Positions 7,755 through 40,107 of a stretch of 55,386 nt of DNA are shown in pieces (within the stretch, counting starts at the first letter, position 1; each line of letters opens with the position of its first letter). Origin of the DNA: Gammaproteobacteria bacterium (GTDB taxonomy: Bacteria; Pseudomonadota; Gammaproteobacteria; Xanthomonadales; Marinicellaceae); the NCBI GenBank assembly GCA_024280395.1, contig JAJRQG010000008.1:1-55386 (forward strand), in the 5' to 3' direction. The position numbers were made by a program, and so were the translations under genes. The notes beneath the pieces are model-generated. The model had not been told where the DNA came from. It saw nothing but the letters and a program-made list of their open reading frames with translations, and did no database searches.

Positions 7755-9643
7755 TATTGATCCTGCCCTGAAATATTGAGTAATAGCTGAAAATCCTGGA
7801 TAGATTTGATGTTTTCTTTGGGTTTAAATGAAGTAAATAATATTCCAGGTACATGGCTGGGATCAATCGCATGATCCCCCGACCATTTGGTATTGTTGTC
7901 ATAAATCAGTTCTTTGGGAACAGCCCCTAACACGGTTTCCCATGAGGCTCGGTACGAAGGTGCATAACCTACAACGATATCTGGTGCATCGGCTGTTTGC
8001 AATCCTTTATATACTTGCTTTCCATCATAGGTTCGAGTGATTATTGGCTTAGAATTGCGGGGGTCGATGATGTTACTTAATTTTTCTAGAAGCTCATTTT
8101 TTATTGCAATGGCTTCTTGCTTATCAACTATTCCAAGAGATTCTCTTCCTATTCTATTAATAAATATGCCATTCATTCCCAAGGCATATGCTTTTGATTT
8201 ACTCCAATCTACATCGGTAAAAAGCATGCTAGATTCTGTTGCGTTTTCATTCAAAAACAGATAGCCATTGTCAACTAACCAACGATTAAGGTTAACGGCT
8301 CGACGGAAAGAAGAAAAACCATGATCACTCAATACCAATAATTTGTCATTGGGCAACATTTTATTGAGTGTTTTGCCTAAAATTCTATCGGCTTCTTGAT
8401 AAATCCACAGAATGGCATTTTGTGCTTGTTTACTGGTTTTGATATGTAGAGGGTGCTTGTCATCTATGCCTCTCCAGAACATGTGGCTAATGCGGTCTGT
8501 CTGCACGAATACAGCAATCACTAAATCACTGTCTGTTTTATCCAAAGTATCAAAGAACATTGCCACTCTTTCAGCCAATATATGTTTTACCATTTGAATA
8601 TACGCTGAATCTGGAATTCTGTTTTCATTCAACGACCAAGTCTCCTCTGGCATACCCAAGGTGTGATATAGGCCTATTCTACTGGCCAATTCAGCTGAAT
8701 ACTCAACAGGACTAGAGATTTGCATAGCAGGATCTATCGGATTGAAATTTATCGGAGAGACATAAAGGCTAATTCTAGGAAAACTTTCGACTAAATAGAA
8801 GCGTACCATACCAGCTACACCCATAACTCCGGCAAATTTAAATTCAAGGGGAACCCATGAAGACCATTGATTTTTTTTAAGGCGAAATTTAATGTCATCC
8901 AGTGTAATTGTTACAGATTCATTTTTGGCTTTTTTAATAGTTAAGGGAAGTTTAAGAGTCCCCGCATCTGGTTTCATGGGGTGTTGTGGCCCTTCAAGTT
9001 GTGTATCAACCAATCCGTTATTTGCTCGGATCCTCTGTACTCTTCCACCCATATCATTACCATTGATAAATTGAGAGGTAATTAATGTATAGGTTCCTTG
9101 AGTACCCAATAAGTCTGGCACACCCATTCCTGATAACATGCGATGAATAGGGTCTGGAGGAAAGGACACAGGTACACGCAAAACCGAAGCTGTTTGGCCT
9201 TTTTCTTCAATTTCCATCCAAAAAGGCTTACCATGTCTGCGGTTAATGACTTCTCCCTCATCTAAAGGAATATGAAATCCAAATAAGTTAAGAGTATCTT
9301 TTGGTGGTTTTATTTCAGTAATTGAAAAATCCGGTGCATAAGTTTTAGTATCGCGGCGAATAAAATCAAAAATTCCATGCTCCCCAGGATTGGTTCCTGT
9401 AGCAAAACTGGACCAAGCAACAGGTGACAAAGCAGGGTTACTGGTACCCAAACGTTGATAGCTTCCCTGCTTTGCTAGTTTGGAAAAATTAGGCAACAAA
9501 CCTTGTGCCATCCATTTCTCAGTGAGATTGGGATCCATGCCATCAAATCCCAATATAATGGTGCGTGATTCAACAGGAGCGACTTGTTCAGAACAACTGT
9601 TAAGAAAGATTAAAATTATTAAACAATAGGAAATTCTTAACAT
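7754..9643 (-). CDS. Lipoprotein, type I phosphodiesterase/alkaline-phosphatase superfamily
   Basis: A 629-residue protein with a lipoprotein signal: hydrophobic N-terminus then LNSC, with C17 as the lipidated cysteine and Ser at +2, pointing to the outer membrane. The mature part is a nucleotide pyrophosphatase/phosphodiesterase fold. Visible residues are GFDGMD (metal-binding D34), SPVAWSSFATG (nucleophile position at S73 by alignment with the TFPN...TG motif of the family), FVQTDRISHMFW, LVLSDHGFSS and GDHAIDPSHVPG, which supply the remaining metal-binding Asp and His. A full two-metal site therefore looks present. The family hydrolyses phosphodiesters or phosphate esters, or acts as a transferase on surface glycans and lipids. 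It lies 9 nt after the small YIGPGAG gene and is coupled to the Oxa1-like gene. Substrate unknown. Confidence 0.82.
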   Translation of the reverse strand: MLRISYCLIILIFLNSCSEQVAPVESRTIILGFDGMDPNLTEKWMAQGLLPNFSKLAKQGSYQRLGTSNPALSPVAWSSFATGTNPGEHGIFDFIRRDTKTYAPDFSITEIKPPKDTLNLFGFHIPLDEGEVINRRHGKPFWMEIEEKGQTASVLRVPVSFPPDPIHRMLSGMGVPDLLGTQGTYTLITSQFINGNDMGGRVQRIRANNGLVDTQLEGPQHPMKPDAGTLKLPLTIKKAKNESVTITLDDIKFRLKKNQWSSWVPLEFKFAGVMGVAGMVRFYLVESFPRISLYVSPINFNPIDPAMQISSPVEYSAELASRIGLYHTLGMPEETWSLNENRIPDSAYIQMVKHILAERVAMFFDTLDKTDSDLVIAVFVQTDRISHMFWRGIDDKHPLHIKTSKQAQNAILWIYQEADRILGKTLNKMLPNDKLLVLSDHGFSSFRRAVNLNRWLVDNGYLFLNENATESSMLFTDVDWSKSKAYALGMNGIFINRIGRESLGIVDKQEAIAIKNELLEKLSNIIDPRNSKPIITRTYDGKQVYKGLQTADAPDIVVGYAPSYRASWETVLGAVPKELIYDNNTKWSGDHAIDPSHVPGILFTSFKPKENIKSIQDFQLLLNISGQDQ

Positions 9644-10031: not shown

Positions 10032-10709
10032 TTATGCTCTTCTAAGAACTACAAATCCAGTAATGCTTAACAACAAACCCATCAGTAACAAAGTAAGGTT
10101 AGATGAAGAAGGTATCATCGCAGGAGGCGCGACAGGTCCAACACCAGCAGGGCTAACCGTTGCAGTAGCTGTTACCCCAATAGCGCCAGCACCAGTAAAC
10201 CTAACATAAGTAGAGGCACCATCCGTACTGATTACAGGACTGGTCACTGAAAAAACATTACCGCTGTACAATGAATAACTATTGCTTTGAGCATAGATAT
10301 TGGTTCCAAAGCTACGAATGGTATAATTACCAGGAGCTGCATAAGTGTGCATAAATTGTCCCGTGAAAGTAGGGTTTCCAGTTACTGTATCAGTGCCGGT
10401 AAAAGGAATCACGGTATTAGCAACGACACTGCCATCACCCCAATCCACAGCAGGAGGAACCGGTGTTACCCAGCGATCAAACAATGATGTGCTTGTACTA
10501 TCGTCATAATAAAATTGACTCCCCAAAGCTCCCCCTGGTAATTGAGAACTGCTATCACCTTGCCCGCTAACATCAATCGACACTTGGCCATTTGTGTTGC
10601 CGGTCACAGTAACCAATAAACCCACAATGTTCGTATCATCATGATTCGCAAAGCTTAATGTTGAATGTAATGCCACGCACAGTAGCAAAAATTTGGTTAT
10701 TAATTTCAT
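10032..10709 (-). CDS. Secreted PKD-like protein with IPTL-CTERM-like tail
   Basis: A 225-residue protein with a signal peptide (cleavage near residue 21, STLSFA). The middle contains FMHTYAAPGNYTIRSFG, the pattern at the end of a PKD domain (H-x-Y-x-x-G-x-Y), preceded by VDWGDGSV. The C-terminus is an Ile-Pro start (MIPSSSNLTL), a hydrophobic helix and a terminal LRRA. This tripartite tail resembles the IPTL/PEP-CTERM sorting signals that hold proteins at the membrane for later processing. No exosortase or archaeosortase gene is in the window. A separate promoter is likely, since a terminator lies downstream and 140 bp upstream are free. Its link to the adjacent sulfatase-fold gene is unknown. 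Confidence 0.6.
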   Translation of the reverse strand: MKLITKFLLLCVALHSTLSFANHDDTNIVGLLVTVTGNTNGQVSIDVSGQGDSSSQLPGGALGSQFYYDDSTSTSLFDRWVTPVPPAVDWGDGSVVANTVIPFTGTDTVTGNPTFTGQFMHTYAAPGNYTIRSFGTNIYAQSNSYSLYSGNVFSVTSPVISTDGASTYVRFTGAGAIGVTATATVSPAGVGPVAPPAMIPSSSNLTLLLMGLLLSITGFVVLRRA

Positions 10710-25889: not shown

Positions 25890-27551
25890 TTATTCAAATC
25901 CATTGATAAAAATCACATCCTCACCATGAAATTCATAAGCGCCAATATCAGGGGCCGTATCTCGTTCACTATTATTATAATCTAATGAAGAACTTAAAGT
26001 GGGGTGCCCTGTACCGACTATTGCCGCATCTTGGTTTTCAGCCCAAAGCATATCGTTTTCAGGACTTTCATACCCTGGATTGGCTTCTACAGAATTGAAA
26101 GAAAAGCCAGAACTAAATTGCCATTGAGACAGATTGCCCGATTGATTAGACCATTCTGCATTTGTTGCATTGGGGTGATAGCATAAATTATTATCTATAT
26201 CTAAATAATTTGATGATGGAAGGTCTACATCAAAACAATTGAAAGAATTCGAGTTACCCGTATAGAAAATGGCATTGCTTACTATTAAATGATTGTCTCC
26301 CATTGTACCAACCGTTATTGCGGTACCTGCAGATAAATTATCAATGTAAATCGAATTGTTACGCACCGTCAAGTTGTCCAAAGGTAAATCATTCGCTGCT
26401 AAATTACGGTCTGGGGCGAGTATTGCTCGGACCGGGAGATCTTGATGATTGGAAATAAGGTTGTTTTCCACAACACAATTCTCGCACGAACCTAAGCCAA
26501 CACCAACACGTCCAACATTAATAATGCTATTGCTTTGGATAAGTACATTGGTAAAAGATTCTGCTTCTGAGTATCCGCCATCAACAGCAATACCCCAACA
26601 ACCTGGTAAAGCATTACCAATATCTTCCCAAATTATATTGTTTTCAATAACCAAATTATTGTGTTCACCATGCACGACTAAAGAAACAGAAGAACAGGCT
26701 CCGTCTTGATCCAAGGTATTTCTGTACAACTGATTTCCACTGACCAATATCCCTTGAGTTACTTGGTCGGCTGAACCACTTATATAGACATTGTGATCAA
26801 AAATCGCTCGTGTTCCATTATCAGAAAAATAATTGTTAATCAGTTTTGTACCACTTGAACCACCTAACCAACCTTGAGTAGAATTAAAGGTCACCGTGCT
26901 ATCTCTCAAGGTAATGCGTTCATTTTGACCATCACAAGCACTATCACTGATGTTACAATCATTTGATGAACCTAAATATACGCCCAACCGAAAATTAGTA
27001 ATGGTTAAATTGCTTAAAATAACATCATCTACATCATTGGCAAGAAAGACCCCTCTACCGTCATTGCTGCCTCTTAAATCGAGATTTTCGATTAGATAAC
27101 CTTCTTCATGTTCAGCATTGCCACTATCAGCTAGATTAAAACCATCGGAACCATTTTGAAAATTTAAAATGGGCTTTTGTTCGTTTCCTGATGCCCAAGG
27201 AGCATCATAATCTGTTATGGTACATTTATTGTCATCTCGACAAAAACCATTAACCCAACGTAAGTTAGATTGAATCAACCAAGAACCTCCATTGCACAGT
27301 TGTATTGAGTCTCCTGCAGATTGTGAATTAAATACACTATTGGCTTGAACAATGCTTTGAAAAGGGTTGACCAAACTGCCATCAGAATTATCATTCCCGA
27401 CCACACAATCAACATCAGAATTGCTTTCACAATCACAGACATGGAAATCTATCGATTGGACAATTGATGGGAAATTTATGAGCAAAACAGTCAAACATAT
27501 TGTTTGTGTTGTTTTTAAAACCAAACTAGTCTTATTAGGGTTACATTTCAT
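25890..27551 (-). CDS. Secreted right-handed beta-helix protein, C-terminal FxNGFE motif
   Basis: A 553-residue protein with a signal peptide (cleavage near residue 33) and a cysteine-rich start (HVCDCESNSDVDCV). The body shows the Asn-rich short-strand periodicity of a parallel beta-helix (NLVIENNIIW, NVLIQSNSIINVGR, NCVVENNLISN, NLTVRNNSIYIDN), like pectin-lyase-fold or carbohydrate-binding proteins. A catalytic site cannot be named. The last residues are DVIFINGFE, matching the tails of four other secreted proteins nearby. It starts only 3 nt after the stop of the FG-GAP gene, so the two form an operon. Confidence 0.75.
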   Translation of the reverse strand: MKCNPNKTSLVLKTTQTICLTVLLINFPSIVQSIDFHVCDCESNSDVDCVVGNDNSDGSLVNPFQSIVQANSVFNSQSAGDSIQLCNGGSWLIQSNLRWVNGFCRDDNKCTITDYDAPWASGNEQKPILNFQNGSDGFNLADSGNAEHEEGYLIENLDLRGSNDGRGVFLANDVDDVILSNLTITNFRLGVYLGSSNDCNISDSACDGQNERITLRDSTVTFNSTQGWLGGSSGTKLINNYFSDNGTRAIFDHNVYISGSADQVTQGILVSGNQLYRNTLDQDGACSSVSLVVHGEHNNLVIENNIIWEDIGNALPGCWGIAVDGGYSEAESFTNVLIQSNSIINVGRVGVGLGSCENCVVENNLISNHQDLPVRAILAPDRNLAANDLPLDNLTVRNNSIYIDNLSAGTAITVGTMGDNHLIVSNAIFYTGNSNSFNCFDVDLPSSNYLDIDNNLCYHPNATNAEWSNQSGNLSQWQFSSGFSFNSVEANPGYESPENDMLWAENQDAAIVGTGHPTLSSSLDYNNSERDTAPDIGAYEFHGEDVIFINGFE

Positions 27552-27554
27552 GAG

Positions 27555-29180
27555 TTAATCCTCAAATGAATCAGAAAAGATCAAATCAGGTTGGATGAAA
27601 TTGAAGACTTCAACTGACCCCGCATCGTTTATTGTATTTGCCTGACTGATAAAAATATCATCACCAGGTATACCGACTGCCAACTCTCCACCATTACCGA
27701 AATCAGCAACTGTCATTGCATAACCCATTTCATCCAAGGGACTGAAATTGTTTGTATAGTATTGATTTTCATCAGTAGTGATACCACTAATGGAACCATA
27801 AAGAATATGAAAAGCACCGCTCGAACTATTTTCACGAGGGACACCTACAACTAAATCATCAAAAGAATCATTATTTAAATCTCCACTTGCCAATGTATCT
27901 CCAAATTGATCTGTACTTTCTGCAACCCCTAATATACCAGTAAAATTCTGATGGAAAGATTGATTGTTAACACTTGATAAACCAAATGAGTCGCCATAAA
28001 TGATGTTTATTGAGCCTGCATCATTTATGCCTGCGCTATTGATATCCTCTCTTGGTACGCCAACAACTAGATCATCTACAAAGTCATTATTGAAATCACC
28101 TGTTGTTAGAGATGTGCCAAACCTGTCATTTTCCTCAACGACACCTATTATATCTCCAGCTTGAGACCATATTACACTGCTATTTTGTAGGTCAATTCCA
28201 TTACTCCCCCCTTCAAACACTTGTACCGCACCTGCGTTTGTAACCCCGTTAACATCTTCTCCTGGAATACCTACCGCCAAATAGTCAAAATTATTATTAC
28301 CAATTCCTGCCAAGCTATAATCGCCAGCAGTCAAACTTAAACCAAATTGATCATTAGTTTCTGAAGCTGTTATAGGCAGATCATCTGACTGCTGAGACAG
28401 TGAGTCTCTAAACTCTGGTTCACCAGATAAACCTTGCGCCCTTCCGTAGTAAACCTCCACTTGCCCTCCATCTATTATTGTTGGAACAGGGCTTCCAAAA
28501 TCTTCAAATGGAGCTGAAACTGCCAAATCATCACAATCATCGCCATCAAAATCGCCTGCAGCCATACTCCAACCAAATCTATCGTTGGCTGTGCTGCTGG
28601 AATCAGCAAAAATTCCTAACCCAGTGCCTTGAAAGAGAAAGGTAGAACCTGCCCCTAAATCTGAGAACCCATCTACAGAACCATGAAATATATTTATCGC
28701 CCCGACGTTTTGTCTAATAGCTGGATTTATTGTGTTATAGTCTTCTTCTGGCGTACCAACTGCTAAATCGGCAATACCATCACAATTAAAATCGCCGCTT
28801 GCAAGGGACCTCCCAAAAAAATCATTTTCCTCAACGCCATTTAAATCTTCTAGTGAATTCGATGAACTAAATGTTTGAAATAAAAATTGCTCATTGGATG
28901 ATGAAAGCCCACTTGGCGAACCATAGATAATCAAAACAACACCAGTATTATTTATTGTTATACCAAAAAACTGAAAGTCATAATTAGGAATGCCAATAGC
29001 CAAATCTTGAATACCATCGTTATTGTAATCCCCGTGAGAAACCGATTCTCCGAGTCTATCTAATGGACTTGATTCACCAATAATATTGGTTGAATCTAAA
29101 TTCCATATAGTACTATCTGTAATGGTGTTGCCCCTAGCCAAGTAGGAATTGATTAATAACAGAAAAACAATGATTTTCAT
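27555..29180 (-). CDS. Secreted seven-bladed FG-GAP (integrin-like) propeller protein
   Basis: A 541-residue protein with a signal peptide (cleavage near residue 17) and seven FG-GAP repeats, for example DFFGRSLASGDFNCDGIADL and DRFGTSLTTGDFNNDFVDDL, enough for one integrin-alpha-type seven-bladed beta-propeller. The Ca-binding D-x-(N/D)-x-D-G-x-x-D loops are present in several blades and degenerate in others. Such proteins usually bind ligands or other surface proteins. The C-terminus is DLIFSDSFED, the shared motif of this island. First gene of the operon with the beta-helix protein, with a GGAGGT ribosome binding site. Confidence 0.85.
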   Translation of the reverse strand: MKIIVFLLLINSYLARGNTITDSTIWNLDSTNIIGESSPLDRLGESVSHGDYNNDGIQDLAIGIPNYDFQFFGITINNTGVVLIIYGSPSGLSSSNEQFLFQTFSSSNSLEDLNGVEENDFFGRSLASGDFNCDGIADLAVGTPEEDYNTINPAIRQNVGAINIFHGSVDGFSDLGAGSTFLFQGTGLGIFADSSSTANDRFGWSMAAGDFDGDDCDDLAVSAPFEDFGSPVPTIIDGGQVEVYYGRAQGLSGEPEFRDSLSQQSDDLPITASETNDQFGLSLTAGDYSLAGIGNNNFDYLAVGIPGEDVNGVTNAGAVQVFEGGSNGIDLQNSSVIWSQAGDIIGVVEENDRFGTSLTTGDFNNDFVDDLVVGVPREDINSAGINDAGSINIIYGDSFGLSSVNNQSFHQNFTGILGVAESTDQFGDTLASGDLNNDSFDDLVVGVPRENSSSGAFHILYGSISGITTDENQYYTNNFSPLDEMGYAMTVADFGNGGELAVGIPGDDIFISQANTINDAGSVEVFNFIQPDLIFSDSFED

Positions 29181-29379
29181 AATTCACCTCCATGAATGTT
29201 CGTTTCCTTTTAATTCGGCATTTGTCATTAAAAGTTTTTGTAAAATTGAAATGAATGAAAACCATTGACCAAAATGAGACATAAATCACACTTCTAATGT
29301 TTCATTGAAATTGATCGTTAACATTTAAGGAAATATTCAGAGTTTAAACGAAACAACTAAGGTGTCATTCATATACTAC

Positions 29380-29540
29380 CCAAATCCCGATATAGAAAAT
29401 ATGATGATAGCACAAGTCCATGATGCACCTAGAAAACCCAGAAAAGGCTTCATCGCCAATGAGGTAAATTTAGTTTTTCTTGATTTCCTATACACATCAG
29501 TTACTTGCACTCTCAAACGCAATTCTATATCGGGATTTGG
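29380..29540 (+). mobile_element. MITE-like element, copy A (18-bp perfect terminal inverted repeats)
   Basis: CCAAATCCCGATATAGAA at 29380-29397 is the exact reverse complement of TTCTATATCGGGATTTGG at 29523-29540. The 161-bp element is about 79% identical by hand count to 46965-46804 read on the minus strand, with no internal gap. It carries no transposase. An open frame crosses it in both copies in the same phase (core AP+KP+K..I.NEV.LVF, then SISGFG). A clear target-site duplication was not found. It stands between the divergent FG-GAP gene and the 148-residue gene, 27 bp before the latter's start. Confidence 0.75.
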
Positions 29541-29567
29541 ATACAAAACAAATCGAGGAATACTTAT

Positions 29568-30014
29568 ATGCTTAAAACAATCTACCTAAAAGTCCTACTG
29601 GCTTCTACTCTCATTTTACTGTCTAGCCTATCAAAATCTGCTGTTTCAGTGGATGATCAAGCTGTCGTTATTGAAAATAGTGGCACCACACTCATCACAG
29701 TATTTGATAATGATACGATAAACAAAGGCGAGAGTGTAACGGCATTTACTCAGCCTGCAAATGGGGTTAGTTCACTGCTACCAGGGCTTGGTATAAATTA
29801 TCAGCCAAACAACAATTATTGCAACAATGGCGTAACCACCGATGATTTTACCTACACATTAACGGGTGCTTCAACGGCAACCGTATCGGTCACTGTCACC
29901 TGTTTAGCTGGAAGCCCTCCTGCTCAAGTAATACCAGTTAACCAATTTCATTGGTTATTGTTTTTGCTTATTTCTGTTGTATTTGTGGCTAAATCAAAAA
30001 ATACTGTTAAATAA
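29568..30014 (+). CDS. Small secreted cadherin-like-domain protein with IPTL-type tail
   Basis: A 148-residue protein. The start at ATG 29568 is chosen because GAGGA lies 8 bases upstream and a signal peptide (MLKTIYLKVLLASTLILLSS) follows directly. A longer frame to 29505 only translates the MITE-like element. The mature part has VDDQAVVIENSGTTLITVFDNDT and DDFTYTL, the pattern of bacterial cadherin-like/Big_9 modules. The C-terminus is VIPVNQFHWLLFLLISVV then a short basic end, resembling the IPTL-CTERM sorting signal (Ile-Pro, Trp at the helix start, helix, basic tail). It is followed 12 nt later by the 632-residue Pmp-like gene. Confidence 0.65.
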   Translation: MLKTIYLKVLLASTLILLSSLSKSAVSVDDQAVVIENSGTTLITVFDNDTINKGESVTAFTQPANGVSSLLPGLGINYQPNNNYCNNGVTTDDFTYTLTGASTATVSVTVTCLAGSPPAQVIPVNQFHWLLFLLISVVFVAKSKNTVK

Positions 30015-30026
30015 ATGGGAATTATT

Positions 30027-31922
30027 ATGTTAAATATAAAATATAAAACTCAACTATTGGTTCTTATTGTTTTCTTTTCAAATCCCTCAAATGCTACGAC
30101 CATTAATATTGATAACAAAGTAAACCATGATCTTGATATGTATCGATCATTTTTAAGTACCAGCGAAAAAATTGAGTTGCACGAGGAAAATGATTTCGTG
30201 ACCATTGGCGCAGATGCTGGCTGTGACTTTAATTCTGCTATTTGGAATATTGGAGATGCTATTTCTAGTGGTTCAACAGAGGTTAGGGTGGCATCAAATG
30301 GAACTTATATTGAAAATATTATTATTGATGATCAAGACCTGATTCTTAGAGGTGGTTTTGCTACCTGTAGCGATGCGGAACTCAATAATCAGGATTTTAT
30401 GGATTTCACTGAAATTAATGGAACTGCCGTTCCTACAAATATAATCGCCATTACAGGAAATAATACACGCCGATTAATTCGATTGGAAAACTTGCTATTA
30501 ACAGGTGCCTCAGTTACGTTCCCTACCATTGGTGGGGCATTATCAGTCATTCAAACCAATCTAGAGCTACAATTGTTGCGGGTGTTTATTTCTGGCAACT
30601 CTGGTGGATCTGGAGCAGGCATTTACATTAACCCTGGGACTGGTGCCAATCAGACAAATATAGATGTTTTTGCTCAAGATGTGGTTATTCACAACAACTC
30701 ATCTATTAACTTAGGAGGAGGCTTATTTTGTATAGGCTTCAGGTCTCAAATTGCCTTAACAGGGATCAGTACTATTTCCAATAATACTTCAGCAACATCT
30801 GGTGGAGGACTATCTATAATTGGTCATTGTAAAGTCAGTATTTATTCCAAAACACACTCAAATATAATAAGTGCATTTCCCGGTCTTTTCAATAACAATA
30901 GTAAAGAAGAAGGTGGAGGTGCTTTTTTAAGAGCAACTGCCTTTTTGTATTTGTTTGGTCAGGAAATGTGCGATAACACCCATTGTTTAGGCTCTGCTGA
31001 TGCGCCCATTATTGTACAAGGAAACTTTAGCGATAATGACACCTTGAACAATGAATCAGGTGGAGGTGTTTATATGGATGGTACTGGAGGTTTCAATGAG
31101 TTTTACGCCAATGGGATATGGATAAATAACAACCAAGCAGGAGGCAATGGTGGTGGTGTCTATGTAGGATCTGATTCGGTTTTTGAAATTGAAAGAAGAT
31201 CTGGGAGCTGCTGGCAAAAAGACCGTTGCAATCTCATTATTAACAATCGATCAGGTACATCTATTGGTTTGGGCGGTAGCTTTTATGTTGACGGTGGAAC
31301 CTTGAATTTAAGCCATGTTTATGTTGAAGAAAACCGTGCTGACTTTGGTACAGCTATAGCTGCTAACGGGGAAAATGCGATAGTAACCATAGAAAATTCA
31401 GTGTTTGATGATAATGGTAATGGAGGATCTAATGGATATTCTGATTTTCAGGTCATAAGGGCTTCAACTGGAGCTTCTATTGCAATACGCCACAGTACTA
31501 TTGCTGACAATGACGCAGTGAACAGTGTTTTTGACATTGATCCTGCATTAAATTCTTCATTATCTCTAAGCTCTTCTGTGGTACATGATCCAAGTTCAGG
31601 TAATTTATTTGGCCCTGTCAGTGGCGATTTAACTATCGATTGTTTGGTGTCGCATGAAGCGTCTAGTTTTTCAGGTACAAATGTATTGGTTAGCAACCCT
31701 GAGTTTGTGAATCGGTCTTTAGGGAATTTTCACCTGGCTGCTGGCTCACCAGCCATCGACTTGTGTGCAGGTATTACAATGTTAAATCCATCAGATATGG
31801 ATATGGAAATAAGAGCATGGGATGATCCTGATCAAGCAAATGGCATGGGAATATTTGATGCAGGCGCTGATGAACGTTATTTCTTTGAAGAGATATTTGT
31901 AGATGGTTTTGAGAATTTTTAA
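30027..31922 (+). CDS. Secreted Pmp-like beta-helix protein, C-terminal FVDGFE motif
   Basis: From the ATG at 30027 (GGGA eight bases upstream) the protein has 631 residues. An ATG at 30015 would add four residues but has no ribosome binding site. A signal peptide covers about residues 1-24. The body has seven or more GG[AGL]-type turns followed by hydrophobic residues (GGALSVIQTN, GGGLSIIGH, GGGVYMDGT, GGGVYVGSD), the spacing of polymorphic outer-membrane-protein (Pmp) repeats forming a parallel beta-helix. The end is EEIFVDGFENF, the shared tail motif with two extra residues. No autotransporter barrel is seen. Confidence 0.75.
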   Translation: MLNIKYKTQLLVLIVFFSNPSNATTINIDNKVNHDLDMYRSFLSTSEKIELHEENDFVTIGADAGCDFNSAIWNIGDAISSGSTEVRVASNGTYIENIIIDDQDLILRGGFATCSDAELNNQDFMDFTEINGTAVPTNIIAITGNNTRRLIRLENLLLTGASVTFPTIGGALSVIQTNLELQLLRVFISGNSGGSGAGIYINPGTGANQTNIDVFAQDVVIHNNSSINLGGGLFCIGFRSQIALTGISTISNNTSATSGGGLSIIGHCKVSIYSKTHSNIISAFPGLFNNNSKEEGGGAFLRATAFLYLFGQEMCDNTHCLGSADAPIIVQGNFSDNDTLNNESGGGVYMDGTGGFNEFYANGIWINNNQAGGNGGGVYVGSDSVFEIERRSGSCWQKDRCNLIINNRSGTSIGLGGSFYVDGGTLNLSHVYVEENRADFGTAIAANGENAIVTIENSVFDDNGNGGSNGYSDFQVIRASTGASIAIRHSTIADNDAVNSVFDIDPALNSSLSLSSSVVHDPSSGNLFGPVSGDLTIDCLVSHEASSFSGTNVLVSNPEFVNRSLGNFHLAAGSPAIDLCAGITMLNPSDMDMEIRAWDDPDQANGMGIFDAGADERYFFEEIFVDGFENF

Positions 31923-32040
31923 TATTTTTCTTTTGCCCTATAGTTATGCAGATGTCTCGTTTTTTATTGTAAATTGTCCCAATTAAGAACTTAATGCATC
32001 GTAAAAACACACTCAATTGTTAAACCAACTTTTTAATCAT

Positions 32041-32892
32041 ATGAATACTTTTAACCTCAAAACTCCTGCAACCTATGAAATTAATGTTTCGAAATTTAAA
32101 CCACGTAACACTATAAAAGCTGCTGTTATGATAGCATCAGCAACTGGTGTTAAACAGTCTCTGTACATGAAATTTGCCCAATTTTTAAGTGAACATGGCT
32201 TTGTGGTTTATACTTTTGATTATGGAGGAATTGGAAATTCACTAACAAAACCATTGAAAGACTTTCATACTTCGACAAGTTTATGGGCAAAGAATGATTG
32301 TGAAACCTTGATAGAACATATCAAAACCCAATATCCGAATATCCCATTACTTGCAATTGGGCATAGTATCGGAGGTCAATTATTAGGGTTAACACCCGCT
32401 AATGCAAAAATAGATGGTATATTGCTGGTGGCAGCACAAACAGGATATTGGAAAATGTGGCCAGGACTTACAAAAATAAAAATGTGGTTCTTGTGGTTTG
32501 TACTTTCTCCTCTAGCAATTAAGCTCTACGGATTTTTTCCCGGTAAAATACTGGGATCGTGTGAAGACCTACCAAAGGGTATGTTTCTTGAGTGGCGCAA
32601 ATGGTGCATGAGTCAAAATTATTTATTTGACTGTGTTGAAGGTGCTCACAATAGTTATAACCAGATAGCTTGCCCAATAGTTTCTTTTAGTGCAAAGGAT
32701 GATGAGTTTGCACCTAAAAATGTTGTCGATTGGCTGAGCAATAAATTTATTAATGCTAAAGTTACCCGAACCCACCTAATTGCCAAGGAAGTCAATTTAA
32801 ACTCAATTGGTCATTTTGGTTATTTCAAAAGCGACAAACAAATACTCTGGAAATTATTGTTAAATTCTTTGAAAAGATTTCTCAATGAATAG
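32041..32892 (+). CDS. Alpha/beta hydrolase, COG4757-like
   Basis: A 283-residue protein with the serine-hydrolase elbow GHSIGGQ and an acidic residue in FSAKDDEFAP. The C-terminal His is most likely in NSIGHFGYFKS. This order, with a wide middle lid (KMWFLWFVLSPLAIKLYGFFPGKILG), matches the predicted hydrolases of COG4757. No signal peptide. The ATG at 32041 is preferred to a TTG at 32017. Neither has a clear ribosome binding site. It sits alone inside the secreted-protein island and shares no strand partner downstream. Confidence 0.75.
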   Translation: MNTFNLKTPATYEINVSKFKPRNTIKAAVMIASATGVKQSLYMKFAQFLSEHGFVVYTFDYGGIGNSLTKPLKDFHTSTSLWAKNDCETLIEHIKTQYPNIPLLAIGHSIGGQLLGLTPANAKIDGILLVAAQTGYWKMWPGLTKIKMWFLWFVLSPLAIKLYGFFPGKILGSCEDLPKGMFLEWRKWCMSQNYLFDCVEGAHNSYNQIACPIVSFSAKDDEFAPKNVVDWLSNKFINAKVTRTHLIAKEVNLNSIGHFGYFKSDKQILWKLLLNSLKRFLNE

Positions 32893-32958
32893 CAATTCTG
32901 ACCATAAAACCAAATTAGAAAAAGCTCGAAGTTGAGTGTCAGATTTTTTACTTAATGT

Positions 32959-35607
32959 TCAATCAAACCCATTCATAAATATCTCATCAACTATAAAATT
33001 AGCATTCATTTCAAATGCGCCTTGGTCGTAATTTGAGTTGTCATTTGGACGTACCTTTCCATCAATGTCTAATAATGAGCCAAAAGTACAGCTGTCTAAA
33101 CTTGGTGAAGTATCTGACAATCGATAATCGCCACGATTGGTACTGATAAATTGAGGATCACCAAGATTAGACCCAATACTTTGTCCGCCCGACTCTGCCA
33201 TTTCGGAATTGTTACATAGACCAATAAAAGGAACAGAGTTTGCAACAAGAGGTCCAAAAGCATTTTGCTGTAATATGCTGTTTTGTACAACAATCGTGGA
33301 GCTATTATCTCCTGCTCGAATGCCTCTTACATTGTTATTAGCAATGGTTGTAGAAAGAAGATTAAATATAACATTCCCATTAATAAAAATAACCGATCTA
33401 TTTATATCTGAAAGCCCATCATTCTCCACGAGAATTAAATTTTCCATAGTCACTTCTGTATCAAGCGGATTAGATAGCTCAAGTTGGATTGCAACTCCAC
33501 TTACTGTAGATGAACCGAATATATTGTTAGCATTCAATGCTACACCACTTAAATTTATTCCTTCTTCATTGGTTGAACCCTTTATCATTAAACCCGCTCC
33601 AGATCTTGCTTCATTGTTTGATACCTCACTGCAATATTCATTAAACCCTAAAGTAGAAGGCAAGCATTCATCAGATAAAATTCCATACACCGATTTTATT
33701 GTTAATGAATTGTCAATGCCACCATCATAAAATATACCGCCACCACCAAAGTGACTAATATTATCATTTATTTTTGAATTGATTAGAACTAAATTTGAAT
33801 TCAAGATTTTTATTCCACCCCCTCCCCCTTGGTTGAAAGTATCAAAAGCTTCATTTTGAATAATTGATGAATTTCTAATGATTAAGTCACTGTCTTCTGA
33901 ATGTATCCCTCCTCCTTCAACCAAAGTAGAATTATTAGCAATGATAGATTTATCGATAATAAGGTTGCTATCAAACACATTAATCGCACCACCATTTCTC
34001 ATAGAATCATTGACACTAAATTCTGACCCAGTAATATAAGCATCAAATATTCCATTTAAATTCAATGCACCTCCTCCTGTTCCATTATTGGTAATTGTTG
34101 TTGAGTTGTTCGAAAACTGTGAATTGATAATACGCACACTGTCAGCAACTGGATCTAAATCAAAAAGGGAAACACCACCGCCATTTGTAGCTCCACTGTT
34201 GCTAGAAATGATACAAGAGTCTATCAAGATTGTACCTCTACCCCCATCTTGAGAAATACCTCCACCAAAAGATGACGATGTATCAGTGAGAACATTTCCT
34301 GTAAATGTGGAATTTTTAAGTTCTACAACAGTACCGTTATTAGAAAATATATCAACCCCTCCACCACTAATCGATGCAGTATTATGTGAAATTTGAGATG
34401 AATTCGCAATAGATAAGCTTTGGCAATTGAAGCAATGAATCCCTCCTCCAAATTGGCTCGCTGCATTAAAAAGAACTCGACTATTATCAATCAACAATGG
34501 TGACGCTGTATAAATTCCCGCACCAAAGCGAGCATCATTATTCAAAATATCACTGCCATTTATAATGTTAATTGAATCGGTACTGTCAAAACTTAAAATA
34601 CCACCTCCCAAAACAAATGCCGTATTAGATAAAATGATGCTTGAATCTACAATGACATGACTAGACCCAGTCAAATATAAACCCCCGCCTCCAAAATTTG
34701 AGCCGAGTTCAGTTGTTAAATTATTACTAACTGTTGCATCTTTTAGAGTTAAACTAGTATTATCCAAGTAAATACCTCCGCCATTGTTTTGTGTTGTGTT
34801 TTCTTTTACAGTGGCATCATTTATGTCTATGTTTGAATCAATAGCGAAAATCCCACCACCTGAATTGTTTGCCACATTGTTTTGTATTTGACTTGCTAGA
34901 TTATTTATCACTAAACTTGAGTTTTCAGCATAAATACCACCGCCATTGTTTGATGCTGTATTGCCTCGATTTATTCCCATTAAACCAATAGAACCCTCAT
35001 TTATAAGGAGTTTAGAACCATATATCGCAAGACCTCCTCCGTTTCCTGTGACAACAGTTCCACTGTAAATTGTAGAGCCATTGTTCATAACAAGGCTACT
35101 TTGATCGGCCGTATCAGAAAAGACATAGACATTGCCACCAGCAGATAAAGCTGATCCATTAATCACAACAACATTATCAAGTGTTACACTACTGCCTTCA
35201 ACAACTGCCATTACACCGCCATTTATTGCAGAGGCATTTATTAATGCTATATCGCGAAAAGTCACTTTCGCTCCATTGGTTATTTTCACCAATCCCCCTA
35301 TTGAATCAAAGGTTTGCCCCATCCCATCAATGATTGCAAAGACACTATCGCCAATTTCACAACCCGTTGCACCCCTGCTTGCAACAAGTGTTAAATTGAT
35401 TGAAATCTCACCAATTAATTGGGTATGTGTCCCACCTTTAATGTTGATAACATCATTGGGTTGTGCAGCTGCAATAGCACCTGATATGGTGTTAAAATTA
35501 CATGCGGTGCCATTTATACTGGCAATGGGTTGTCCGGCTAGTAAAGCATTAGCCCAAAAGGTAATGCTTAGTAAAAGTAAGTTGCCAATATTTATATTTA
35601 TTTTCAT
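32959..35607 (-). CDS. Large secreted Pmp-like beta-helix protein, C-terminal FMNGFD motif
   Basis: An 882-residue protein with a signal peptide (cleavage near ANALLAG, residue 24). About 17 GGG/GAG turns spaced 22-35 residues apart (NGGGIYAENS, NSGGGIFAID, NGGGIYLDN, FGGGGLYLTG, FGGGIHCFN, SGGGVDIFS and so on) make a long right-handed beta-helix of the Pmp type. The end is DEIFMNGFD. The repeat DNA (ACCACC/CCTCCT-rich on the plus strand) is the only internally repetitive stretch in the island. Its 3' end is convergent with the alpha/beta hydrolase gene. No outer-membrane barrel is present, so export needs other machinery. Confidence 0.78.
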   Translation of the reverse strand: MKININIGNLLLLSITFWANALLAGQPIASINGTACNFNTISGAIAAAQPNDVINIKGGTHTQLIGEISINLTLVASRGATGCEIGDSVFAIIDGMGQTFDSIGGLVKITNGAKVTFRDIALINASAINGGVMAVVEGSSVTLDNVVVINGSALSAGGNVYVFSDTADQSSLVMNNGSTIYSGTVVTGNGGGLAIYGSKLLINEGSIGLMGINRGNTASNNGGGIYAENSSLVINNLASQIQNNVANNSGGGIFAIDSNIDINDATVKENTTQNNGGGIYLDNTSLTLKDATVSNNLTTELGSNFGGGGLYLTGSSHVIVDSSIILSNTAFVLGGGILSFDSTDSINIINGSDILNNDARFGAGIYTASPLLIDNSRVLFNAASQFGGGIHCFNCQSLSIANSSQISHNTASISGGGVDIFSNNGTVVELKNSTFTGNVLTDTSSSFGGGISQDGGRGTILIDSCIISSNSGATNGGGVSLFDLDPVADSVRIINSQFSNNSTTITNNGTGGGALNLNGIFDAYITGSEFSVNDSMRNGGAINVFDSNLIIDKSIIANNSTLVEGGGIHSEDSDLIIRNSSIIQNEAFDTFNQGGGGGIKILNSNLVLINSKINDNISHFGGGGIFYDGGIDNSLTIKSVYGILSDECLPSTLGFNEYCSEVSNNEARSGAGLMIKGSTNEEGINLSGVALNANNIFGSSTVSGVAIQLELSNPLDTEVTMENLILVENDGLSDINRSVIFINGNVIFNLLSTTIANNNVRGIRAGDNSSTIVVQNSILQQNAFGPLVANSVPFIGLCNNSEMAESGGQSIGSNLGDPQFISTNRGDYRLSDTSPSLDSCTFGSLLDIDGKVRPNDNSNYDQGAFEMNANFIVDEIFMNGFD

Positions 35608-35679
35608 GTCTGTGGTTTTATTTTAAGAAGTTACTCATAATTTCGACAAAATCACAGAAAAGTTTTATTTTAGTGAATA

Positions 35680-35694
35680 CCCAAATCTCGATAA
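35680..35694 (-). repeat. Solo half-site resembling the MITE-like terminal repeat
   Basis: CCCAAATCTCGATA on the plus strand matches the outer end of the element's terminal repeat at 13 of 14 bases, then diverges. It lies about 75 bp upstream of the 882-residue gene, in the orientation that the element's gene-proximal end has before the other two genes. Confidence 0.35.
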
Positions 35695-35711
35695 TTGTAC
35701 AAAGGCCTCTG

Positions 35712-37964
35712 TCATTCAAAGTCATCACTAAACATATGCATATAAGTAGTTTTCAGAATAAAGTCTTTATTTGTGGCTTGTTGTAATGGAGATAAGGTTA
35801 TTTGATCTGCATCTAGTGGATTACATAAACCAACTGAGCAAAAATCATTACCATATTTAACATCCAATAATGCTTCCAGGCTTGAAGTGGTCAAATAATA
35901 AGCACCAACTGGTAGTCCGCGAGTGATATAATTTCCTTGCTCATCAGTAATAGATGAGCCCATAAAGACACCTTGATCGTTGTAAACATTTATGGTGATT
36001 TCTCTGAGTCCGCTATTGTTTATAAAATCAGTAACTGTACCTGTTATTATTCCGCCTTGAGTGAGGCTGAAATCAACAGCATTTGTGCCCAACAGCTTTA
36101 CTGAACTTAGGGGTAACACAATGGGTGTACCCATGGTAACATCACAACCTGCTAAACAGGTAAGACCGTCATATAAGATATCAATCCAACCAATTGGTGC
36201 CGCCCCACCAATATTGCTAAATACACTGACAAAGAAGGGTAGATCTGAGCCATAACCTGTTCTGGCATAATAAGTGCCATCAGGCAATCCTGTCACTTCA
36301 AATGCACCAATAGGAACACCATTACTACCTGAGCTGGTGGTTGCCCAATTGGCAAATTCAACCATACCTGCCCCCATATCTTTATACACCAGTACGTGGA
36401 CATTGGCCACAGGAGCACTGGTGGCAAGGTCTGTTACCGTACCAGAAAATGAGTTTCCAGTAGATAACGAAAAATCGATTCCTGTTGTTATTGTCTCATT
36501 TGTTACAATAATATTTGTAGCAGATAAATCACAAGCAAGGCCAGCACAATTAACAGCTGGATATTTTTGATTGACATAGGGCTGTGTCAATACACCTTGG
36601 AACATTGAACCTGTGCGTGCAGAATAGGTGCCTGCAGGCAGTGCACGGGCTGAAATATAACTGCCGTCATCCTTAATAAATGCAGAACCTACAACAGTTT
36701 CTGCACTGTTATAAAACTCAACTTGCAATCTGGCTTCACTCTGGTTTTGGACAATAGGTAAACCCGTTACAGCATCAGTTACCATCCCTGAAATCTTTCC
36801 ACCTTTGTCTAATAAGAAATCAATACCAACTAAATTCTCTCCAGAACTAAGTGAAATGAGATCACCCATACTTCTATCGCAACCAGAGTAATAGCAAGGA
36901 TGATTGTCGTATAGTTCTCTTTGGTAAAATTCTTGACCTAAATCACCCCCTTGAACATAATAACTACCTGGCAGCAATCCGCCAATTGTATAGGTCCCAT
37001 CTGCACCTATATCGTAATTGGTCCCATACACGACTATAGAAGCAAGATTATCATTTAACTCGTTGAATAACATCACCAGTCCGTATTCAACCAAGGGATT
37101 CAAAGTATCATTGTCTACTAATGTTCCTGATATGCTCGCACCAGTATTTAGTACAAAATCAATACCGTTAATAGTATTTGCCATATTTATGTTCAGGATA
37201 CTGCCAATTCCACTAATTGTTAGTTTTTGACAGCCATTACATTCAGGGCCGCCAAATATTTGTGGAATATGATTATTGTTTTCTAACGGAAATAAATAAA
37301 CCCTGTAATCACCATCAGGAATACCATTCAGGGTAAATTCACCAGCTACTGTCTCAACAGTCGATTGCACTTGGTAAGTATATTCATTATTTGCGTTAGT
37401 AATTGAAACCACTACAGTATCAACCCCTTGCTTGGTTATACTGTCAATGACAGTACCAGTTATTTTACCCCCTAACTTGACTATAAAATCAATGTTGTTG
37501 ATAACATCTGAATCAGTAACACTTATATAGCTACTTGTGGGAACAATACAGTTGAAGAAAGTACATACTATTGGTGCTGTTGGATTCCATAAGTATTTTA
37601 AATATTCACTTTGATTGGTGTTACTACCTGAGTTAACAACATAAACACCTTCCGGCAGTGCGTCAAACGAATAATAGCCACTTGCATTAGTTACAACCTC
37701 ACTTACATATTGTTGTTCTCCAAATATAATTTCATATAGACTTACACTATAATTGACCAATGGTGTCGCCAAATCATTCTGAATATTTCCTCCAATAACA
37801 GCTGTACCAATACCCTTTATAGAAGCCTGCATTTGTTTTGCGTATATCGGGTTCTGTTTTGATTCAATAAATTCATCACTAGTTGTGTTAATCGTATTTT
37901 GGTTGGCCAATATGGTAGAACTCGTAAATAATAAAATTATCAGACGGATGTTGTTTTTGTTCAT
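35712..37964 (-). CDS. Secreted carboxypeptidase-regulatory-like repeat protein, C-terminal FSDDFE
   Basis: A 750-residue protein with a signal peptide (cleavage near residue 20). It consists of six related ~110-residue units, each opening with G-x-I-x-G-T-V-x-D (GGKITGTVIDSITKQGV, GGKISGMVTDAVTGLPI, GNSFSGTVTDLATSAPV, GGIITGTVTDFINNSG) and a mid-unit G-L-P-x-G-x-Y-Y strand. This is the carboxypeptidase D regulatory/CNA-B type beta-sandwich. Several units hold a pair of cysteines (e.g. GLACDL, CLAGCDV) that could form disulfides in the cell envelope. The end is MHMFSDDFE, a loose form of the island's shared tail. First gene on its strand after the 295-bp control gap shared with the sigma factor gene. 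Confidence 0.78.
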   Translation of the reverse strand: MNKNNIRLIILLFTSSTILANQNTINTTSDEFIESKQNPIYAKQMQASIKGIGTAVIGGNIQNDLATPLVNYSVSLYEIIFGEQQYVSEVVTNASGYYSFDALPEGVYVVNSGSNTNQSEYLKYLWNPTAPIVCTFFNCIVPTSSYISVTDSDVINNIDFIVKLGGKITGTVIDSITKQGVDTVVVSITNANNEYTYQVQSTVETVAGEFTLNGIPDGDYRVYLFPLENNNHIPQIFGGPECNGCQKLTISGIGSILNINMANTINGIDFVLNTGASISGTLVDNDTLNPLVEYGLVMLFNELNDNLASIVVYGTNYDIGADGTYTIGGLLPGSYYVQGGDLGQEFYQRELYDNHPCYYSGCDRSMGDLISLSSGENLVGIDFLLDKGGKISGMVTDAVTGLPIVQNQSEARLQVEFYNSAETVVGSAFIKDDGSYISARALPAGTYSARTGSMFQGVLTQPYVNQKYPAVNCAGLACDLSATNIIVTNETITTGIDFSLSTGNSFSGTVTDLATSAPVANVHVLVYKDMGAGMVEFANWATTSSGSNGVPIGAFEVTGLPDGTYYARTGYGSDLPFFVSVFSNIGGAAPIGWIDILYDGLTCLAGCDVTMGTPIVLPLSSVKLLGTNAVDFSLTQGGIITGTVTDFINNSGLREITINVYNDQGVFMGSSITDEQGNYITRGLPVGAYYLTTSSLEALLDVKYGNDFCSVGLCNPLDADQITLSPLQQATNKDFILKTTYMHMFSDDFE

Positions 37965-38259: not shown

Positions 38260-38826
38260 ATGGACATTAACATTTCAATAAATAAGATAAGTCAAATTGC
38301 CGAAGAAAGCTTTGCTGGTTCTGGCTATGATGAGTTATTCGACAAACTCTATCCGTTTATTAAACAGCTGGCACATTATGAATTAATGAAGCTCAACCCA
38401 GGTCAACAACTTACTCCTACCGCTTTGGTTAATGAGTGTTATTTAAAATTAAAATCCGGCAAAAACCAGCGATATGACAATAAGAAACATTTTTACAATA
38501 CCGTTGCGCGTTGTATGCGGTTTTTTTTAGTTGACATTGTTCGCTCTCATCATAGGCAAAAAAGAAAAGGTGAACATACAGATTTTAGTGTATCCCAAAT
38601 AGAAGGGAATGATGGTATTGCCATGGAATTACTCGAATTAGATGATGCTTTAAAACAATTGGAGGAAATAAATCCAGATTTAGCGAATATAACTATGATG
38701 AGGTATTTTTCGGGCATGACTCTAGATGAAATAGCAAAAACTTATGATTGTAGCAAAAGCCATATTCATAAACAGTGGACAATAGCTCGTGCATATTTGG
38801 TTAATATTTTAGAGGAAGAAAACTAA
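38260..38826 (+). CDS. ECF-type RNA polymerase sigma factor (Sigma70_ECF, TIGR02999-like)
   Basis: A 188-residue sigma factor. Region 2 is seen in LYPFIKQLAHYELMKL and NKKHFYNTVARCMRFFLVDIVRSHHRQKR, region 4 in QLEEINPDLANITMMRYFSGMTLDEIAKTYDCSKSHIHKQWTIARAYL with the helix-turn-helix near residues 150-172. The phrase PTALVNECYLKL is typical of the TIGR02999 group, whose members are usually followed by a Ser/Thr kinase. The kinase gene starts 16 bp downstream here. In the related Vibrio EcfP-PknT system the kinase activates the sigma factor by phosphorylation. That this pair works the same way is inference. No anti-sigma gene is present. Confidence 0.9.
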   Translation: MDINISINKISQIAEESFAGSGYDELFDKLYPFIKQLAHYELMKLNPGQQLTPTALVNECYLKLKSGKNQRYDNKKHFYNTVARCMRFFLVDIVRSHHRQKRKGEHTDFSVSQIEGNDGIAMELLELDDALKQLEEINPDLANITMMRYFSGMTLDEIAKTYDCSKSHIHKQWTIARAYLVNILEEEN

Positions 38827-38841
38827 AGAGGGTTAAACAAG

Positions 38842-40107
38842 ATGATAGTTAAAAGCAACATGACAGTTTGGCAACAATCAACAGAAGTATTTGAAAGCTT
38901 GGTTGACTTTCCACAAGAGCAAGCCTTGTCACGTTTAAAACTTCTTGACAGTGTTTCTGATTCGGTCAAACGAAGGGTGACCAAGTTGATAAAGGCTGTT
39001 AATAAAGACAATACAGTTTTGGATGTAGTCAATTCAGGAAATGTATTTCAACAATTAAAATCCATCACCGATTTAACAGGAAAAACCATAGGCAACTACA
39101 AGGTTACAGAATTGATTGCTATTGGAGGCATGTCCTATATTTACAAGGCACATCGCATTGATTCTCAAGTACAAAAACCTGTTGCAATTAAAGTAATGTC
39201 CTTAAGTCAAACACCCGAATCACTTGCTTTATTTAACCGAGAGCAACAAACCTTATCTAAATTAAATCACCCGAACATTGTATCTTTTTTACATGGCGGG
39301 CAAACCGATGATGGTATTTATTATTTAGTGATGGAGTTTGTTGAACAAGCTATACCACTTGATGCATATATTGAGAAAAAAAATATTAACAAAACCACCA
39401 TTGTGTGTATGATTAAAAAAATTGCCAATGCCATGAAGTTTGCTCATGAAAATTTAATTATTCATGGCGATCTAAAAAGTGACAATATCATTGTTGATAA
39501 AGATGGCAATATCAAAATAGTTGACTTTGGCATTTCTGCTTTCACATTCAAACATGATGCCAATAAGATAAACGCTTATACACCAGAAATCGCATCTCCT
39601 GAACAAATCAAAGGCGAAGAAGTCACCACCAAAACAGATGTATTTTCATTGGCTGCCACACTTTTACAACTTTTAGTAAAGGACAGCAAGCTGCCAGAGT
39701 TTACACCAGATACCTATGATGAGAAAGAAGATGAAAAATACGTCAAACAAGTATTGGCTAGTTCATCACTTGATATTGATCTTTGCAATATTTTAATAAA
39801 AGCTTTAAGAACCGATAGTTTTAAGCGTTATTTTACCATGTTTGATTTTGCCAAAGATTTACATAAATGGTCGCTAAATAAACCAGTATCTGCAACCAAA
39901 AGTACTCGGTTTTATTTGCTGAAAAAATTTATTATACGCAACAAGTTTTTAACGGTTGCGAGTGTAGTATTGTTAAGCTCGGTATTTGTTTCTATCATCT
40001 CATTCAAAAACTACGTGGCCAGTATAGAAAGCGAAACTCAGCGAATTAATCTTCAACTTCAAGAGACGCAACAAAAGTTAAATCAAAAGACTATCAGTAA
40101 AAAGTAA
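38842..40107 (+). CDS. Membrane Ser/Thr protein kinase lacking the usual TPR tail
   Basis: A 421-residue Hanks-type kinase. An N-terminal ~75-residue helical region precedes the kinase domain (about 83-350). Visible parts are the glycine loop IAIGGMSYIYKA, the ATP lysine AIKVM, catalytic HGDLKSDN (Asp present, the usual Arg replaced by Gly, so a non-RD kinase), VDFG and the TPEIASPEQ substrate segment. A single TM (FLTVASVVLLSSVFVSIISF) follows, then a short coiled coil (ETQRINLQLQETQQKLNQK) and the stop. Family members beside TIGR02999 sigma factors usually continue into a long TPR sensor. Here the outside part is only about 40 residues. A GAGGG ribosome binding site precedes the ATG. Confidence 0.9.
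   Translation: MIVKSNMTVWQQSTEVFESLVDFPQEQALSRLKLLDSVSDSVKRRVTKLIKAVNKDNTVLDVVNSGNVFQQLKSITDLTGKTIGNYKVTELIAIGGMSYIYKAHRIDSQVQKPVAIKVMSLSQTPESLALFNREQQTLSKLNHPNIVSFLHGGQTDDGIYYLVMEFVEQAIPLDAYIEKKNINKTTIVCMIKKIANAMKFAHENLIIHGDLKSDNIIVDKDGNIKIVDFGISAFTFKHDANKINAYTPEIASPEQIKGEEVTTKTDVFSLAATLLQLLVKDSKLPEFTPDTYDEKEDEKYVKQVLASSSLDIDLCNILIKALRTDSFKRYFTMFDFAKDLHKWSLNKPVSATKSTRFYLLKKFIIRNKFLTVASVVLLSSVFVSIISFKNYVASIESETQRINLQLQETQQKLNQKTISKK

Follow-up and report, generated by a model that had tools for sequence, protein, structure and literature searches.

What do five unrelated secreted proteins, encoded close together, share at their last residues, and which machine, if any, reads it? The question is raised by a stretch of 55,386 nucleotides, here called the window, on contig JAJRQG010000008.1 (assembly GCA_024280395.1) of a gammaproteobacterium of the family Marinicellaceae, order Xanthomonadales. 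An earlier note on this DNA had claimed that five of its proteins carry signal peptides and end in a common motif, [IM]F-x-[DN]-x-F-[ED]; in the translated open reading frames (ORFs) all five tails are present at the true C-terminus, and all five proteins (5/5) are positive for a Sec signal in a crude test of hydrophobicity. It is very probable that these tails represent a real, order-specific C-terminal tag, for which no name was found. That the tag is a short linear secretion or sorting signal read by the canonical type II secretion system (T2SS), here termed S-type, is suggested by the co-occurrence of the two and stands at about even chances.

The tail in the window genome and its carriers

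The window genome (G000; 3.77 Mb in 158 contigs) contains 78 matches to the DNA pattern for [IM]F-x-[DN]-x-F-[ED], versus 10 for the reversed pattern, and two relatives contain 71 and 57 matches versus 0. The surrounding DNA of all 78 matches was inspected: nine lie in short frames of 9-56 amino acids (aa), and the other 69 in frames that either span 60 aa or more or are left open by a contig edge. Among these 69 frames, 55 stop 0-5 residues past the motif (34 at 0, 12 at 1, 4 at 2, 2 at 3, 1 at 4 and 2 at 5 residues), which leaves no room for a transmembrane helix. In 49 of the 324 ORFs of a set collected around motif matches, and hence enriched for tails, the motif is C-terminal, compared with a mean of 0.08 and a maximum of 2 after shuffling each protein's own last 20 residues (500 rounds); the genome-wide count of 78 versus 10 is not so enriched. 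The comparison with shuffled C-termini that the earlier note had proposed places the motif at the ends of secreted proteins far above chance.

Most carriers appear to enter the Sec pathway. The crude signal-peptide test was positive for 48 of the 55 frames with a terminal motif, 46 of them credible, as the signals of L008 and L053 lie far inside the frame; four of the seven misses run off contig ends. Among complete ORFs, 44 of 49 tailed versus 101 of 275 untailed ones were positive.

The consensus of the tail is [DE]-x-[IM]-F-x-[DN]-[GS]-F-E. In the 49 complete tailed ORFs, an acidic residue occupies position -2 in 36 cases and I or M the first position in 47, followed by N (28) or D (21), G (37) or S (8) and a last E (46) or D (3), with no conservation upstream of -2; the two phenylalanines, the D/N and the final E/D were imposed by the search pattern, and the acid at -2 and the glycine are independent of it. 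Because the glycine codons are mixed (GGT 14, GGA 11, GGG 9, GGC 3), the tail looks to have been kept as protein and not copied as DNA.

The proteins that carry the tail are diverse, with matches to 43 Pfam models, some of them interrelated, among the 49 tailed proteins and the commonest model found in four; the family tables give the matching families, with positions only for the first member. The NCBIfam choice-of-anchor Q model matches six of the 49, the models for ExeM/NucH nuclease, metalloprotease and subtilase match one each, and an endonuclease I relative is also tagged. ExeM/NucH-type nucleases, subtilases, endonuclease I and metalloproteases are kinds of protein often secreted by T2SSs. 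For the five window proteins, none of the listed Pfam or NCBIfam matches extends into the tail; the choice-of-anchor Q model matches the 553-aa window protein weakly (E 0.081) and ends at residue 541, before the tail. The tail is not the last strand of a known domain model, which the earlier note had named as a second ground for refutation. The genome-wide count, the terminal position, the signal peptides, the variety of domains and the lack of a model for the tail all support the earlier proposal of a recognition tag, and its distinction from PEP- and IPTL-type signals holds as well, the tails having neither a transmembrane helix nor a basic end. A PEP, IPTL or GlyGly-CTERM tag was rejected on the same grounds, as no helix follows the motif and the tails end in E, D or a few mixed residues.

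Choice-of-anchor Q proteins offer a comparison of endings on one kind of domain. They were surveyed at 30 loci, many of which run beyond the locus edge and some of which may be in a wrong frame. Several frames from tail-rich genomes end in the tag (L324, L329, L347) or in variants of it (L333, L345), and three from tail-poor ones (L337 in G086, L350 in G071, L334 in G050) end in IPTL-type helices, as does L336 of the window genome itself. A tag-like end, DVIFKNGFEIEN, was also seen in L338 (G102, family f8, no S-type system). These endings suggest that the tag can stand in for an anchor on choice-of-anchor Q proteins, which is compatible with export, retention or both.

The remaining 14 of the 69 frames carry the motif elsewhere. 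In L003, L063 and L070 (less clearly in L072) it lies close behind the signal peptide; in the first three, and in L234 of genome G101, it stands at the mature N-terminus, directly after the signal-peptide cleavage region. Six copies (L028, L058, L059, L084, L085, L087) are followed by 72-101 residues, and three of these extensions share an evident C-terminal domain (GFE-DVV...), the rest being similar by eye. In L054 and L060 the motif is followed by 11 and 17 residues, in L073 it is internal, and L069 is likely a chance match. A secreted family of about 95 residues, with an SGGFW-like core and the tail, is present in ten copies in the window genome (L005, L021, L034, L040, L043, L046, L047, L064, L065, L074) and has relatives in other families of the order (L133 in G117, L154 in G030); the one member scanned, L064, had no Pfam or NCBIfam match.

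Distribution and co-occurrence with an S-type T2SS

The distribution of the tail is known from samples of one class, namely 298 genomes of the order and 229 of other orders. A strict pattern, [LIMVF]F-x-[DN]-[GSR]-F-E followed by a stop written as TRR (which also admits W), matched at least once in 94 of the 298 genomes and in 39 of 85 genera of the order, versus six reversed-control matches in all 298. Among 232 genomes of the class only the window genome had more than one match, and the 229 genomes outside the order were at chance level, with a single match in nine and a single control match in seven. Without the stop, three genomes gave 66, 97 and 45 matches (controls 0, 0 and 1), a rise explained by the 1-6 extra residues that many tails carry. 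Within families the distribution is patchy: family f2 is rich only in G101 and G223, and family f12 only in genera g15, g25, g54 and g64.

Correlation of the tail with candidate translocon genes, as the earlier note had advised, brought out the canonical T2SS as a candidate machine, and its role as the reader is proposed from that co-occurrence. GspD (TIGR02517) was sampled in 79 chosen genomes, 43 tail-rich and 36 tail-poor, and was found in 78 of them, including all 43 tail-rich ones; the sole genome without it, G011 (4.7 Mb), belongs to the window's own family and has no motif copy. In a tree built from 36 genomes (60 GspD sequences) there are two deep groups, S and L. Every one of the 16 tail-rich genomes sampled is represented in S, as are four that are tail-poor (G013, G094, G063, G075); S contains no copy from the remaining 16, the G216 copy and one G078 copy being outgroups to it. 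The L-type (Xps-like) T2SS was rejected as the reader, as the tree places it in tail-rich and tail-less genomes alike and it is not discriminating.

A profile of S-type GspD scored S sequences at 684 bits or more (own family left out), L sequences at 252 or less, and the G216 and G078 outgroups at 638 and 466. Over the 298 genomes, 130 matched it at E 1e-100 or better and 108, some of them fragments, were called S by an analyst-set threshold of 1.16 bits or more per aligned residue, with odd fragments judged by profile score. S-type GspD was found in 76 of the 82 genomes that have 10 or more motif copies, or in 78 when contig-end fragments (G120, G125) are counted. Of the four without it, three (G173, G067, G178) are metagenome-assembled genomes (MAGs) 81-90% complete, and G080 (97%) is a real exception. 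Among the 216 genomes with fewer than 10 copies, 32 have S-type GspD (33 with a fragment in G017) and 183 do not.

A second T2SS gene follows the same trend, since canonical GspL (PF05134) was detected in 43 of the 44 genomes tested that have 10 or more copies versus 10 of 35 with fewer. Of these ten, seven are S genomes, G044 has a weak match beside an L-type locus, and those of G078 and G216 lie beside the outgroup copies. GspL is encoded megabases away from S-type gspD in G154 (3.71 Mb versus 0.35 Mb) and in G027. The S cluster consists of gspC-D-E-F and in many genomes adjoins helicase- and ftsEX-like genes (non-gsp names by eye). One S-type cluster, that of L249, has an alpha/beta-hydrolase-like gene (8176-9135; likewise named by eye) in the interval that separates gspC from gspD.

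Among the S genomes with few copies, 23 belong to a single genus, g12 of family f9, which seems from its sequences to have a G-to-R variant of the tail, one genome having been sampled and three others glimpsed. Among the endings at choice-of-anchor Q loci of this genus are DRIFRDRFGLF, IFSDRFDSAR and IFADRLESQP. In an evenly spaced 400-kb sample of G075, four of 353 ORFs end in IFTDRFE, IFSDRFE, LFIDRFE or IFHDRFE plus 2-6 residues, versus a shuffled mean of 0.18 and maximum of 2; three of them start with a signal-peptide-like stretch, and the fourth is truncated where the sample ends. DRFE-type tails were absent (0) from 250 ORFs of the T2SS loci of tail-less genomes.

Candidate reader and alternative readings

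In the proposed mechanism, tagged proteins would enter the periplasm by Sec, as their signal peptides in the crude test suggest, and fold there, presumably leaving the terminal [DE]-x-[IM]-F-x-[DN]-G-F-E exposed. An S-type T2SS, with a PDZ-bearing GspC clustered with D, E and F and with GspL encoded elsewhere, would then recognize the peptide and move the protein across the outer membrane, both steps being suggested by the co-occurrence. PDZ domains bind terminal peptides, and the Xps-like counterpart is without a detectable PDZ domain, so that the PDZ domain of the S-type GspC may be regarded as the leading candidate reader. It was found in all three scanned S-type GspC proteins; the C-position protein of the L system in the window genome matched GspC and XpsN only below cut-off and had no PDZ match. 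The partial text of PMC12369372 describes the PDZ domain of EpsC as needed for full secretion of one Vibrio substrate, VesB, and that of PMC11981180 describes XpsC as having a single helix there. The fuller form of the proposal, in which the nine-residue peptide is a T2SS substrate signal bound by the GspC PDZ domain or a different periplasmic component, and in which the GFE and DRFE forms of different lineages co-evolve with their reader, is somewhat less probable than recognition by the S-type T2SS as such.

Several observations weigh against recognition of the tail by an S-type T2SS. Because a small number of shared losses (f2, f12, perhaps f8, and G011, in which GspD is absent) carries the co-occurrence, the Fisher p of about 1e-37 for the association with S-type GspD stands uncorrected for kinship. 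The 22 genomes left out of S, all in f2 or f12 with 0-1 motif copies and weaker, outgroup-like matches, would weaken the link if counted. Inside family f8 there is no association of tail and S-type GspD (Mann-Whitney p 0.51), and two of its genomes, G080 (16 copies) and G106 (seven, several of them real tails), have neither S-type GspD nor canonical GspL; their tails are either relics after loss or have another reader. Conversely, S-type GspD occurs with 0-1 copies in G094, G134, G159 and G177, with none in G243 (f12) and with 2-4 in G013, G015 and G144. The DRFE variant was recognized only after the fact, and eight or nine S genomes with few copies stay outside the account that it gives. An alignment of the PDZ domains of S-type GspC does not clearly set tail-rich genomes apart from tail-poor ones. 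Strict binding of a terminal carboxylate by a PDZ domain fits poorly with the 21 of 55 terminal copies that have 1-5 more residues (34 end exactly at the motif) and with the few copies behind a signal peptide (L003, L063, L070); these features make GspD or the pseudopilus possible readers. In addition, canonical T2SSs of other orders are not known to need a tail of this kind to function, and the 229 genomes of other orders lack tails above chance.

The strongest competing explanation is that another machine, such as a surface-retention receptor, an outer-membrane anchor or a processing protease, reads the tag, the S-type T2SS having been co-lost through a shared way of life. It is a serious if tentative possibility, and the position of the tail in the IPTL-anchor slot of choice-of-anchor Q proteins points to retention as well as export. 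The same reading would accommodate family f8, which keeps some tails without an S-type T2SS, and the small number of co-losses that carry the correlation; as only T2SS genes were profiled, other genes may correlate too. On the other hand, two T2SS genes at separate loci, those for S-type GspD and GspL, track the tails, the tail-poor genus g12 turns out to have a variant tail, and no translocon family recurs in the gene neighbourhoods of tailed genes, all of which count against a different machine.

It is improbable that the tail is purely structural, a terminal strand with an NG/DG turn that caps beta-rich secreted folds and has no reader, even though many carriers are beta-helices, propellers or Ig-like repeats and F-x-[DN]-G-F resembles a beta turn by eye. 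The carriers include nucleases and proteases among their many Pfam models, the same choice-of-anchor domain ends differently in several tail-poor genomes, the tail is at chance level in the 229 genomes from other orders of the class, and in the one pair examined the linker varies in length while the tail stays. AlphaFold predictions of two tailed window proteins (mean predicted local distance difference test scores of 36 and 26) were too poor to inform on this explanation. Some carriers are paralogous, for example the ten small SGGFW-like proteins, which would fit remnants of one duplicated family or an effect of composition; given the excess over reversed patterns in three genomes, the many different domains and the lack of conservation upstream of -2, such an origin by chance or inheritance can be practically dismissed. 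Recognition by the S-type T2SS, for its part, keeps the even standing given at the outset.

The window cluster and comparison with known systems

The genes of the window cluster, together with the loci at which the variant tail was seen, are listed in the table.

Table. Tailed genes of the window, their neighbours and loci with a variant tail
Feature	Location	Strand	Remarks
Secreted beta-helix protein, 553 aa	25890..27551	(-)	Tail DVIFINGFE at 25893-25919; Pfam Beta_helix
Secreted FG-GAP propeller protein, 541 aa	27555..29180	(-)	Tail DLIFSDSFED at 27558-27587; Pfam FG-GAP
Big_9 protein between tailed genes	29505..30014	(+)	IPTL-like hydrophobic and basic tail, i.e. the other tail type; Pfam Big_9
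Secreted Pmp-like repeat protein, 635 aa	30015..31922	(+)	Tail EEIFVDGFENF at 31887-31919; POMP_repeat below threshold, weak
Secreted beta-helix / Pmp-like protein, 882 aa	32959..35607	(-)	Tail DEIFMNGFD at 32962-32988; Pfam beta-helix
Secreted carboxypeptidase-regulatory repeat protein, 750 aa	35712..37964	(-)	Tail MHMFSDDFE at 35715-35741; Pfam
ECF sigma factor	38260..38826	(+)	Pfam Sigma70_ECF; TIGR02999 over cut-off; adjoins tailed genes
Ser/Thr protein kinase, partner of sigma factor	38842..40107	(+)	Pfam Pkinase
Variant tail, IFxDRFE or a close form, not matched by the GFE pattern	L360, L361, L369, L370 (G075), L321, L339, L342		

The domains that the earlier note had assigned to the tailed proteins were largely borne out by Pfam, which recognized the beta-helix (in the 553-aa and also the 882-aa protein), FG-GAP and carboxypeptidase-regulatory domains; for the 635-aa protein, noted as Pmp-like, the sole match was a POMP repeat below threshold. 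Four of the five proteins have relatives in another MAG (L031), and these retain their tails. The relative of the 553-aa protein is 78% identical and ends in DVVVFNNGFE, and that of the 541-aa protein is 83% identical and keeps the motif as ELIFSNSFEGLSF, with a preceding linker and following residues that differ in length. The relatives of the 635-aa protein end in EVMFVDDFEDS (L031) and EVMFVDGFEDF (L032), and that of the 882-aa protein in DQVFINGFE (L031). An ending like that of the 750-aa protein, YMHMFSDDFEE, occurs on another contig of the window genome (L079).

Two types of C-terminal tail, the IPTL-like one and the short tag, coexist in the window genome. The IPTL-like tail of the Big_9 protein is retained in L031 (5709-6170) and matched no NCBIfam CTERM model. 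Another hydrophobic and basic tail of this type is encoded at 10032-10709 of the window, with a weak match to the NCBIfam midcut-by-XrtH model (E 0.0011, below cut-off).

The ECF sigma factor is likely a regulator of the tailed genes. Its pairing with a Ser/Thr kinase beside tailed genes is also found in L031 (1034-2837) and L032 (2411-4220), and this pair could possibly provide dedicated regulation of the tailed proteins. The surroundings of tailed genes were surveyed in 13 genomes with few tails, as 40 neighbourhoods each no longer than 20 kb, with genes named by eye except for one kinase (Pfam). The commonest neighbour, a Ser/Thr kinase, occurs at 10 of 40 loci and in eight of 13 genomes, a raw count that carries no claim of enrichment over random neighbourhoods; the others include CadC-like regulators and a fibre-like secreted family (five loci each) and ECF sigma factors and an oligopeptidase-like gene (three loci each). 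The recurrent kinase and regulator neighbours suggest gene regulation, not the export route. No translocon family recurred in these neighbourhoods, and an export machine encoded beside the tailed genes was rejected on this ground.

Among the papers listed by a literature search none concerns this tail by its title, which does not show its absence from print; the matches listed for motif strings included names such as Fangfeng. The choice of cargo by the T2SS is an old question: according to the available parts of PMC11981180 and PMC12369372, a linear signal that is conserved or universal has yet to be recognized, the former stating that no conserved T2S signal has been identified. If the proposed recognition by an S-type T2SS is true, the tail would be the first such signal. 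A nine-residue tag that can be removed or moved to a reporter would make the question directly testable, and secretomes might be predicted from sequence in an order where many surface proteins are without an assigned route.

As in the PEP-CTERM/exosortase, GlyGly-CTERM/rhombosortase and IPTL-CTERM systems, a genome has many signal-peptide proteins that are otherwise unrelated and have just the C-terminus in common. Like the tripartite sorting signals, which the portion of PMC3237569 consulted describes as present or absent by lineage, the tag comes and goes between lineages and is located after choice-of-anchor domains; unlike them, it spans about nine residues, has neither a transmembrane helix nor a basic cluster, and coexists with IPTL-like tails in one genome. 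In its proposed role it also resembles the C-terminal domains of the type IX secretion system (TIGR04183 and relatives), which likewise sit at the C-terminus and direct proteins across the outer membrane. Those domains are folded and comprise about 80 residues; TIGR04183 matched one of the 49 tailed proteins weakly (E 0.0014), and no other model of that system was present among the 25 families listed.

Outer-membrane proteins likewise end in a short aromatic motif, the BAM beta-signal, which is recognized in the periplasm. In contrast to it, the tag is found with no barrel family among the listed matches, has a final E and can have 1-5 residues beyond it. The tailed proteins are like T2SS substrates such as those of the EpsC/VesB and OutC systems in being exported by Sec (44 of 49 by the crude test) and, presumably, folded. 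According to the available parts of PMC12369372 and PMC7949064, the known determinants of such substrates are structural loops or an immunoglobulin fold, the latter source describing loops that act as secretion signals in pectate lyases; unlike these, the tag is a conserved linear peptide.

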